From contig NC_008347.1 in the NCBI RefSeq assembly GCF_000014745.1, forward strand, positions 1,435,501 through 1,499,500: DNA of 64,000 bases, read 5' to 3'. Origin of the DNA: Maricaulis maris MCS10 (lineage in GTDB: Bacteria > Pseudomonadota > Alphaproteobacteria > Caulobacterales > Maricaulaceae). A program made the translations under genes and the position numbers. The notes under the pieces were generated by a model that worked only from the letters and a program-made list of their open reading frames with translations, was not told the DNA's origin and made no database searches. Below are positions 33,534 to 37,532 of this stretch, in pieces. Positions within the stretch are counted from its first letter, which is position 1; every line of letters starts with the position of its first letter.

Positions 33534-33688
33534 CCTTTCGAGGTCGCATCGCCACCTCCTGTAGCAAGCCGGATCTCCGGGCCTCACGTTCGACGTGACG
33601 GTCCGGTGAGCCGTTCAGTCACGAATTGTAGGCCAACGCTGTAACAGGTCTGCCCGCGCTCCCCCGAGTGAGCGCGCTTGGAGAAAAC

Positions 33689-36097
33689 ATGTCCACGACG
33701 AAGACCCTTCCCCTTCTTCCCCTGCGCGACATCGTCGTCTTTCCGCACATGATCGTGCCGCTCTTCGTGGGCCGCGACAAATCGGTCAAGGCTCTGGAAG
33801 AGGTGATGAAGGCTGACAAGCAGATCCTGCTGGCCACCCAGCGTACTGCGTCCGACGACGAGCCCGGTGCCGACGCCATCCACAAGACCGGTGTGATCGC
33901 ATCTGTCCTGCAATTGCTCAAACTGCCTGACGGTACGGTCAAAGTCCTGGTCGAGGGTGGTGTTCGCGTCGAGATCAGCGCCTTCACCGAGCGCAGCGAC
34001 TATTACGAAGCCGTGTGCGACGTCCTTGATGAGGATCCCGGTGACGTTTCGGAGCTGGAAGCGCTGATGCGGACCGTCTCGGCCAAGTTCGATGACTACG
34101 TGAAGCTGAACAAGAAGGTTCCGCCGGAAGCGCTGGCGTCTTTGTCGCAGATCCGCGAACCGGGCAAGCTGTCGGACAGCATTGCCGCCCACCTCGCCGT
34201 CAAGATCGAGGAAAAACAGTCACTGCTGGAAGAGCCGGACGTCAATCGCCGGCTCGAGCGCATCCTTGGCATGATGGAAGGCGAGATCGGCGTTCTTCAG
34301 GTCGAGAAGAAAATCCGTTCGCGCGTCAAGCGCCAGATGGAAAAGACCCAGCGCGAATATTATCTCAACGAGCAGATGAAGGCGATCCAGCGCGAGCTGG
34401 GTGAGGGCGATGACAGCCGCGAGGAGCTGGCCGAGCTGGAAGAAAAGCTGGCCGAGGCCAAGCTTTCCAAGGAAGCCCGCACCAAGGCCGATGCCGAGTT
34501 CAAGAAGCTCCGCAATATGAGCCCGATGTCGGCGGAGGCCACCGTTGTTCGCAATTATCTCGACTGGATCCTGTCGGTCCCGTGGGGCAAGCGCAAACGC
34601 CTGAAGAACGATCTGGAGCGCGCTGAAGGCGTGCTCGAGACGGATCATTATGGCCTCGACAAGGTCAAGGAGCGTATCCTCGAGCACCTCGCCGTCCAGG
34701 CGCGGACGAAAAAGCTGAAGGGACCGATCCTGTGCCTCGTTGGCCCGCCGGGCGTCGGCAAGACCTCGCTTGGCCGCTCGATCGCCAAGGCCACGGGACG
34801 CGATTTCGTACGCATGTCCCTGGGCGGGGTGCGTGACGAGGCCGAAATCCGGGGCCATCGCCGCACTTATATCGGCTCCATGCCGGGCCGGATCATCCAG
34901 TCGATGAAGAAGGTGAATTCGTCCAATCCGCTCTTCCTGCTCGACGAGATCGACAAGCTGGGTGCCGATTATCGCGGCGATCCCGCTTCGGCCCTGCTTG
35001 AAGTGCTCGATCCGGAACAGAACGCCAATTTCAACGATCATTATCTGGAGGTCGATTACGACCTGTCAGACATCATGTTCGTGACCACGGCCAACACGCT
35101 CAACCTGCCGCAGCCCCTGCTGGACCGGATGGAGATCATCCGTATCGCTGGCTACACCGAGGATGAGAAGGTCGAGATCGCCCGGCGCCACCTGATTCCC
35201 AAGCAGATGAAGAACCATGCGCTCAAGGAGAGCGAATGGTCTCTGACAGAAGACGGCCTGCGCGATCTGATCCGCTATTACACCCGCGAAGCCGGTGTCC
35301 GTAGCCTCGAGCGTGAGATCGCCAATCTGGCCCGCAAATCCGTCGTTCAGATCGAACGCGGCAAGGCCAGCTCGATCACGGTTTCAGGCGATAATCTTGG
35401 TGAGTTTGCCGGCGTCCGGAAATTCCGGTTCGGTGAGACCGAGGACCATGACCAGGTCGGCATTGTTACCGGTCTGGCCTGGACTGAAGTCGGCGGCGAC
35501 CTGCTCACCATTGAAGCCGTCCGCATGCCGGGCCGTGGCAAGATGATGGTAACCGGCAATCTGCGCGACGTGATGAAGGAGTCGATCTCGGCGGCCAATT
35601 CCTTTGTCCAGTCGCGGGCCCCGTCACTGGGTATCAAGCCGACCATTTTCCGGGCCGCAGACATTCACGTCCACATGCCGGAAGGCGCGACTCCCAAGGA
35701 TGGACCGTCCGCCGGCGTTGGCATGATGACTGCGATCGTCTCGGTCCTGACCGGCATACCGGTCCGCAAGGATATCGCCATGACCGGCGAGATCACCCTG
35801 CGCGGTCGTGTCCTGCCGATCGGCGGGCTGAAGGAGAAGCTGCTGGCGGCCCTTCGTGGCGGTGTGAAGACCGTGCTCATTCCCAAGGACAATGAAAAGG
35901 ACCTCGCCGAGATCCCGGACAATGTCAAAGAGGGCATGGAGATCATTCCGGTCGAGACCGCTGATGAAGTCCTGATGCGGGCGCTGGTTGAACCGGTCGA
36001 GCCGGTCGAATGGACCGAGGCTGACGAGGCGGCTCTGGCAGCGATTGCCTCACAGCCGGGTGGTGATGGCGGAGCCGGACAGGCGATTGCGCACTAG
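33689..36097 (+). CDS. lon: ATP-dependent protease La (Lon)
   Basis: An 802-residue AAA+ protease that degrades misfolded and regulatory proteins. Start: ATG at 33689, six bases after GGAG; an earlier start at 33668 has no such site. Order: N-terminal substrate domain ([23 protein letters not shown]), coiled coil, Walker A (GPPGVGKTS) near 350, Walker B ([11 protein letters not shown]), and the protease domain with the Ser-Lys dyad S674 (KDGPSAG) and K717 (LKEKLLAA), spaced 43 residues as in E. coli. Completes the tig-clpP-clpX-lon block. Confidence 0.98.
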
Positions 36098-36128: not shown

Positions 36129-36158
36129 TGGCCGGAGGCGTCGTCTCCGGCCATTTTT
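36129..36158 (+). terminator. Intrinsic terminator of lon
   Basis: A 9-bp stem (TGGCCGGAG with CTCCGGCCA, 7-base loop) followed directly by TTTTT, 31 bases after the lon stop. Confidence 0.92.
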
Positions 36159-36193: not shown

Positions 36194-36222
36194 TTGACCG
36201 TGCAGTCGGGGGCGGCCAATCT
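36194..36222 (+). promoter_or_regulatory. Possible promoter of the pheA leader
   Basis: TTGACC at 36194-36199, 17-base spacer and a weak CAATCT at 36217-36222. Transcription would then begin at about 36229-36230, right at the leader-peptide ATG, which has no ribosome binding site. This would make a leaderless leader mRNA. The -10 match is poor. Confidence 0.35.
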
Positions 36223-36229
36223 CCGTTTC

Positions 36230-36301
36230 ATGAGCAATGCGACGTACTTTTTTGCGGCCTATTTTGACAACGCAACCCGGGTGGGGGCGGTGGCCGGCTA
36301 G
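36230..36301 (+). CDS. pheL: Phe/Tyr-rich leader peptide of pheA
   Basis: A 23-codon frame: MSNATYFFAAYFDNATRVGA, then VAG and TAG. It holds three Phe and two Tyr within residues 6-12. All three Phe codons are TTT, the less favoured codon in this GC-rich genome, which would sharpen stalling. It lies 25 bases ahead of a terminator hairpin that precedes pheA, the arrangement of a transcription attenuator sensing charged tRNA-Phe. No Shine-Dalgarno sequence is seen before the ATG. Confidence 0.8.
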   Translation: MSNATYFFAAYFDNATRVGAVAG

Positions 36302-36358
36302 ATTGTGCGACAGCGCAACGAAACCAGGGCCTCCCCCACGGGGAGGCCCTTTTCTTTT
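36281..36358 (+). promoter_or_regulatory. pheA transcription attenuator
   Basis: Terminator: an 11-bp perfect stem, 36326-36336 with 36340-36350 and a CAC loop, then TTTTCTTTT. Antiterminator: GTGGGGG at 36281-36287 can pair with CCCCCAC at 36333-36339, which would take apart the terminator's left arm. A ribosome stalled at the Phe/Tyr codons (36245-36265) would leave 36281 onward free, so read-through; one reaching the stop at 36299-36301 would cover the antiterminator arm, so termination. Confidence 0.8.
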
Positions 36359-36377
36359 GTCTGAAGGGATTACACAC

Positions 36378-37532
36378 ATGGCAACGGACATGACGCGGGA
36401 TGAAATCCGCTCGGCTATCAGCGATATCGATAAGGAATTGATCGATGCCATCGCCCGTCGCTCCGGACTGGTGGAAGAAATCCTCAAGGCCAAGGCGCGG
36501 ACCGGCAGTCCGGTCAGGGACCGGGAGCGCGAGCGCGACGTGCTCCGGGCCGCCGTCCAGCAGGGCAGCGAGAAAGGCGTTCCGGCTGAACTGGTCGAGA
36601 CGCTGTTTCATGCGCTGTTCGAGGCGTCGGTCCGCCGTCAGCGCCAGCAATTCGACTCCATGCGCAATGACGAGCTCAATGAGGCCACGGTCGCCTATCT
36701 GGGCGGTCCCGGCAGCTACAGCCACATTGCCGCGCAAAAGGTCTTCCAGCGTCGCAATGCGACGGTGGTGCCATCGCCGAAACGGGACTTTGTCTCGATT
36801 TTCCGTGCGGTCGAGAATGCCGAAGTCGATTATGGCGTGATCCCGATCGAGAACACCACGACCGGGTCGATCAACGAGGTCTACGACATCTTGATCAATT
36901 CCCACACGCAGATCATTGGTGAGTTCCTGCTGCGGGTCGATCATTGCCTGGTCGGTCGGGCGAGCGGGCAGGGGCGCGTGCGCCGTGTGTTCGGCCATCC
37001 TCAGGCGCTGGCCCAGTGCCGGCGCTATATCAGCTCGCATCCGGAGCTTGAAACCCACATGGCGGCCTCGACCACGCGCGCGCTGGAGCGGCTGTTGGAG
37101 GACGATGATACGGCGGTGGCCGTCGCCGGCGAGGATGCGGCCCGCCTGTTCGGCATGGATATTCTGGAGCGCAATGTCGGTGACCACGAGCAGAATATCA
37201 CGCGGTTCATCGTCATCGGACGCAAGTCCAAACTCCCGACGCGCGAGGTCGAGTGCAAGACGTCGATGATGTTCACCACACGCGACACGCCGGGATCGCT
37301 GGTCAATGCGTTGATCGGTTTCCGTGATAACGGGATCAATCTGGTGAAGCTGGAATCGCGGCCGATTGCCGGCAATCCCTGGGAAGAAATGTTCATCATG
37401 GATGTCGAAGGGCATCTGGAGGACAGCAAGATCCGCGAGTCCATGTCGGTGCTTGAGGAGCATACCCGCGAGATCAAACTGCTCGGCTGTTATGCAATGG
37501 ACGCCATCGACAAGGTGTCGGTCGCCGAATGA
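36378..37532 (+). CDS. pheA: Bifunctional chorismate mutase/prephenate dehydratase
   Basis: The P-protein that converts chorismate to prephenate and then phenylpyruvate for phenylalanine synthesis. It is 384 residues from the ATG at 36378, which follows GAAGGGA. An AroQ-type chorismate mutase domain (about 8-95; IRSAISDIDKELIDAIARRS) precedes the dehydratase domain (about 104-280; YLGGPGSYSHIAA, IPIENTTTGSI) and a C-terminal ACT domain with the ESRP phenylalanine-binding motif (LVKLESRPI). Feedback by Phe is expected at the protein level, with attenuation at the RNA level. Confidence 0.96.
   Translation: MATDMTRDEIRSAISDIDKELIDAIARRSGLVEEILKAKARTGSPVRDRERERDVLRAAVQQGSEKGVPAELVETLFHALFEASVRRQRQQFDSMRNDELNEATVAYLGGPGSYSHIAAQKVFQRRNATVVPSPKRDFVSIFRAVENAEVDYGVIPIENTTTGSINEVYDILINSHTQIIGEFLLRVDHCLVGRASGQGRVRRVFGHPQALAQCRRYISSHPELETHMAASTTRALERLLEDDDTAVAVAGEDAARLFGMDILERNVGDHEQNITRFIVIGRKSKLPTREVECKTSMMFTTRDTPGSLVNALIGFRDNGINLVKLESRPIAGNPWEEMFIMDVEGHLEDSKIRESMSVLEEHTREIKLLGCYAMDAIDKVSVAE

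Follow-up and report, generated by a model that had tools for sequence, protein, structure and literature searches.

The 64-kb stretch of DNA analysed here (hereafter the window) belongs to a genome of 3,368,780 bases, whose nearest relatives by pheA are all Maricaulis. Between lon and pheA lie a predicted promoter, a short leader open reading frame (ORF; ATG AGC AAT GCG ACG TAC TTT TTT GCG GCC TAT TTT GAC AAC GCA ACC CGG GTG GGG GCG GTG GCC GGC TAG) and a hairpin followed by a T tract (Table 1). The product of pheA carries CM_2, PDT and ACT domains and is therefore a bifunctional P-protein. An earlier note on this DNA had described four features of the locus: a 23-codon frame with three Phe codons (all TTT) and two Tyr codons within seven codons; an 11-bp terminator hairpin with a T run; a possible pairing of GTGGGGG with CCCCCAC; and the placement of all of these before pheA. 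All four are borne out by the letters: the frame is read at 36230-36301, with the aromatic residues falling in codons 6-12; the hairpin occupies 36326-36350, with an 11-bp stem and a 3-nt loop, and runs into TTTTCTTTT; GTGGGGG (36281-36287) has its complement in CCCCCAC (36333-36339), the latter composed of terminator arm and loop; and the next gene, with its ATG at 36378, encodes the protein with the three domains.

Table 1. Features of the lon-pheA region, in window coordinates
Feature	Position	Strand	Remarks
lon	33668-36097		upstream of pheA leader
lon's own terminator	36129-36153		strong; good stem on other strand too
-35-like element TTGACC, pheA promoter (predicted)	36194-36199	+	TTGAC spacing kept across family loci
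-10-like element CAATCT (CANNNT in relatives)	36217-36222	+	7 nt before leader ATG; spacer 17 nt
Leader ORF, pheL-like, 23 codons, MSNATYFFAAYFDNATRVGAVAG	36230-36301	+	start, stop and Phe/Tyr core kept in relatives
Putative sensing codons Tyr6 Phe7 Phe8 Tyr11 Phe12	36245-36265	+	leader ORF sequence
Region 1, CGGCC	36255-36259	+	1:2 stem with GGCCG 36292-36296 if no ribosome is present or it has moved past; MFE fold
Region 2, GTGGGGGCGGTGGCCG, antiterminator 5' half	36281-36296	+	within last codons of leader ORF; duplex with 36328-36339; covariation
Region 3, terminator 5' arm and loop; antiterminator 3' half	36326-36339	+	fold and covariation
Region 4, terminator 3' arm and T tract TTTTCTTTT	36340-36359	+	terminator prediction; compensatory pair in relatives
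pheA, bifunctional chorismate mutase type II / prephenate dehydratase with ACT, 384 aa	36378-37532	+	Pfam CM_2, PDT, ACT

Conservation and alternative pairings of the pheA leader

Across both strands of the window, the pheA leader is the only short ORF in which at least five Phe or Tyr codons within 12 are followed by a strong terminator. The choice of Phe codon is also distinctive, with TTT accounting for 21% of the Phe codons across long ORFs of the window versus 41 of 59 (69%) in Maricaulis leaders. Comparison with relatives, which the earlier note had proposed, recovered the same layout before bifunctional pheA in 47 of 51 genomes of Maricaulis' family: all 19 Maricaulis and 28 of the 32 genomes from other genera, a count that includes L037, where a contig end leaves only the last part of the leader. 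Before monofunctional pheA the layout was found in 0 of 19 genomes of the same family; the presence of the element therefore follows that of bifunctional pheA, a point that goes beyond the earlier note. The four genomes with bifunctional pheA and no leader (L040, L041, L042 and L051) are regarded as natural losses of the attenuator. L040, L041 and L042 form one genus group, in which pheA directly follows the lon terminator. The leaders themselves diverge strongly among genera (e.g. MTANLFFFGGYFYRPHGAG, MITRASFFYGFYFAAPGGG and MNFGATYYGYFIKAPSEALG); what stays constant is the plan, namely an aromatic core, about 4-12 codons and then a G-rich end that codes for Gly-rich tails. Upstream of tyrA, trpE, pheS, phhA, the class II DAHP synthase gene and the two further chorismate mutase domains that this genome encodes, no comparable leader was found.

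Evidence for mutually exclusive folds comes from both energies and covariation. As an antiterminator, the stretch that begins with GTGGGGG and runs through the terminator loop has a folding energy of -30.7 kcal/mol, a value that none of 200 shuffles equalled. Pairing in the terminator reaches 98.5% over 18 Maricaulis leaders, and one pair has changed from G-C to A-U in 6 of these rows. Antiterminator double changes occur at two pairs within Maricaulis (U-A to A-U and G-C to U-A); their 3' partners lie in the terminator loop, and they are therefore explicable by the antiterminator alone. When region 2 was matched with cognate or foreign terminator arms, mean energies were -21.2 versus -19.1 kcal/mol and none of 20,000 permutations was as low, in a test on 23 representatives that removes relatedness only in part. 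At single loci, duplexes of region 2 and the arm modestly beat dinucleotide shuffles (9 of 45 below 5%), a test whose power the G-richness of region 2 keeps low. The putative protecting 1:2 stem, joining codons 9-10 to the end of the ORF, is weak and differs in register among rows; across Maricaulis rows it is 81.5% paired and has three doubly changed pairs, with shuffles matching some of these measures. The segment TTTACCAACGCAACCC (36263-36280, codons 12-17) is strongly kept in Maricaulis and lies outside every predicted stem; it is perhaps a spacer held free of structure.

Folds were modelled with the ribosome at set positions: when it occupies the last aromatic codon (codon 12 here), the arm pairs upstream through at least 6 arm bases in 34 of 44 loci, and when it has reached the stop codon all 44 form the terminator. 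For a stall at codon 12 in the present locus, the free RNA makes the antiterminator before the terminator 3' arm exists. The complete transcript at equilibrium usually favours the terminator, even after such a stall, and the antiterminator would therefore have to win by kinetics, the usual assumption for attenuators. The switch geometry put forward in the earlier note thus agrees with these folds and with the compensatory changes in three stems.

A further aspect, not raised in that note, is how the leader is likely to be started. In 44 of 45 family loci, the distance from the start of TTGAC to the leader ATG is 35-37 nt; the sole outlier (30 nt) arose where the script took an upstream ATG as start. 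A CANNNT hexamer is present in 43 of the 45, its end lying 6-7 nt ahead of the ATG. Letters resembling a Shine-Dalgarno site precede only 3 of 45 leaders. From the fixed spacing of -35 element, -10 element and ATG, transcription is predicted to start at or beside the A of the ATG, and the leader ORF is probably leaderless. Such a start has precedent in the alphaproteobacteria: rnTrpL of S. meliloti begins at the trpL ATG (PMC7298713, PMC10117765), and C. crescentus possesses 375 leaderless mRNAs whose translation is on a par with that of others (PMC4117421).

Layout, conservation and alternative pairings, all of them read from sequence, make it very probable that this element is a ribosome-mediated transcription attenuator of pheA, and the attenuation mechanism itself is a classic of the textbooks; the stalling, the read-through and the tRNAs sensed are what we infer. 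In the proposed scheme, the transcript would begin at the A of the leader ATG, without a 5' UTR, and a 70S ribosome would read the leader, with two possible outcomes: 1) where charged tRNA-Phe and tRNA-Tyr are ample, the ribosome would reach the stop codon and cover region 2 (36281-36296), the terminator would form, and transcription would stop near 36359, freeing a small RNA of about 130 nt; 2) where charged tRNA-Phe, and probably also tRNA-Tyr, is short, the ribosome would stall at codons 6-12, hiding region 1 and exposing region 2, which would pair with the terminator 5' arm, so that the terminator would be blocked and pheA transcribed.

Tyrosine codons and competing readings

The Tyr codons allow of more than one reading. 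The attenuator may respond to Phe only, with the Tyr codons being tolerated neighbours, one base off Phe, or pacers of the ribosome; this is a narrower form of the attenuation model and compatible with it. Phe is the product of the enzyme, Phe codons occur in 45 of 45 leaders, the L059 leader has Phe and no Tyr, and E. coli-type pheL carries Phe only. However, Tyr codons are present in 44 of 45 leaders (18 of 18 distinct Maricaulis leaders and 26 of 27 others) versus none of the 11 Rfam-confirmed gammaproteobacterial pheL leaders, and Tyr outnumbers Phe in five (L038, L046, L049, L052 and L054). Several residues are one base away from Phe, yet the exchanges are almost solely between Phe and Tyr: in Maricaulis (counts without the indel-bearing L010), 28 of the 34 cells at codons 6 and 7 hold Phe or Tyr, with swaps of order, codons 8 and 12 are invariably Phe, and codon 11 is invariably Tyr whilst varying between TAT and TAC. 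Sensing of Phe only is accordingly a reading that we hold to be possible and rather doubtful.

Since Phe and Tyr replace each other at shared positions, joint sensing, in which a shortage of either charged tRNA would open the switch, is favoured; the suggestion of Tyr sensing in the earlier note thereby gains support of an evolutionary kind, and we consider it reasonably likely. A physiological motive may exist, in that the genome encodes phenylalanine hydroxylase and Phe can therefore supply Tyr; the position of the PheA chorismate mutase at the Phe/Tyr branch is possibly a further reason. Counting against joint sensing, two more chorismate mutase type II domains are encoded in the same genome (2614169-2614405 and 2168371-2168604), and Tyr synthesis therefore need not rely on PheA. 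The leaders of L061, L063 and L065 have YYF at codons 11-13 and then a late LF beside the G-rich tail. Since a ribosome halted at that last Phe would mask region 2, the Tyr codons may be the working ones in these leaders.

Other readings fare less well. The freed leaderless RNA of about 130 nt, or the peptide, might also act in trans in the manner of Sinorhizobium rnTrpL/peTrpL, given an architecture shared with the leaderless trpL attenuator RNA (PMC7298713, PMC10117765) and a peptide segment, TNAT, that is kept in Maricaulis. Changes within TNAT are, however, both synonymous and non-synonymous, with selection at the level of the peptide not evident, and the GAVAG tail is accounted for by RNA pairing, leaving an additional role in trans improbable. 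It is more improbable still that the hairpin simply terminates constitutively or closes a transcript from upstream, with the ORF arising by chance: intergenic intrinsic terminators are common and lon ends at 36097, but lon already has a strong terminator of its own, the ORF, Phe/Tyr core, region 2 and promoter spacing are kept family-wide with compensatory changes, and the combination of ORF and terminator is unique in the window. Finally, an N-terminal extension of PheA, for which the frame is open back to 36237 (431 aa), is rejected as scarcely credible, as the 384-aa form is matched by relatives from its first residue onwards, the upstream open frame ranges from 387 to 443 aa in Maricaulis, and the upstream frame that is conserved is that of the leader, with fixed start, stop and Phe/Tyr core.

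Relation to known attenuators

At gathering thresholds, an Rfam search of the window returned tRNAs only. The Phe_leader family (RF01859) scored 28.6 bits against a threshold of 55, and among 14 relatives no match reached the gathering level; as positive controls, 11 gammaproteobacterial loci scored 68-136 bits. Rfam does not cover the Maricaulis-type pheA leader. Matches below threshold, to ctRNA_p42d and further sRNAs, stem from the terminator hairpin and were set aside. For attenuators in proteobacteria, the main survey is that of Vitreschak et al. (2004). No mention of a Maricaulis leader peptide, or of Tyr codons in an attenuator of this kind, was found in a search that covered few subscription papers, and an earlier prediction for Maricaulis is possible.

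As in E. coli and gammaproteobacterial pheL (RF01859), the very probable attenuator described here stands before a bifunctional CM-PDT pheA and combines a Phe-rich peptide with a terminator and an antiterminator. Apart from scoring below the Phe_leader threshold, it differs from pheL in three respects: the Maricaulis-type leader nearly always carries Tyr codons; it is probably leaderless, without a Shine-Dalgarno site; and its region 2 sits in the last codons of the leader ORF itself. With S. meliloti trpL (rnTrpL/peTrpL) it shares ribosome-mediated attenuation in an alphaproteobacterium and an RNA that starts at the leader ATG, as reported for trpL (PMC7298713, PMC10117765) and predicted here, whereas the codons and gene concerned are Trp and trpE(G) in the former and Phe/Tyr and pheA in the latter. 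A further likeness is to uORFC-8-2 (cysS) of Rhodobacterales, an alphaproteobacterial attenuator predicted to act through a leader peptide whose codons are cognate to the gene it controls (PMC8632094), although gene, codons and order are different.

Origin of pheA and significance of the probable attenuator

Among 288 alphaproteobacteria sampled across the class, a pheA this similar was found in the genome of the window only. Outside Maricaulis' family, the best PheA matches are P-proteins of gammaproteobacterial type (E down to 3e-87), the assignment of the matching genomes to that class resting on Phe_leader matches and leader peptides resembling E. coli pheL; other proteobacterial P-proteins match at about 1e-55. 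In a tree with long branches, PheA of the family and enteric-type gammaproteobacterial PheA group together as sisters (99/96), separated from alphaproteobacterial monofunctional proteins. Sister genera of the genomes with bifunctional pheA retain monofunctional PDT. Taken together, these sequence comparisons suggest that the bifunctional pheA of Maricaulis' family was horizontally acquired, probably as a replacement; an attenuator carried along with the gene and then remodelled, or one that evolved afresh, would fit this history.

The composite view, of a leaderless attenuator that integrates the charging of tRNA-Phe and tRNA-Tyr over a horizontally acquired CM-PDT in one alphaproteobacterial family, with Phe feeding Tyr via the hydroxylase, is one that we judge to be evenly balanced between right and wrong. 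The family holds both natural replacements, in which monofunctional pheA lacks the element, and losses, and is therefore suited to studying how an attenuator originates and travels with its gene. If the composite view is true, it would extend an Rfam family that is now blind to Maricaulis-type sequences, and it would add a further alphaproteobacterial case, after rhizobial trpL, of attenuation from a leaderless ORF. It would also place a Phe-type attenuator outside the enteric lineage, reading two amino acids and thus matching the role of its enzyme at the branch point.
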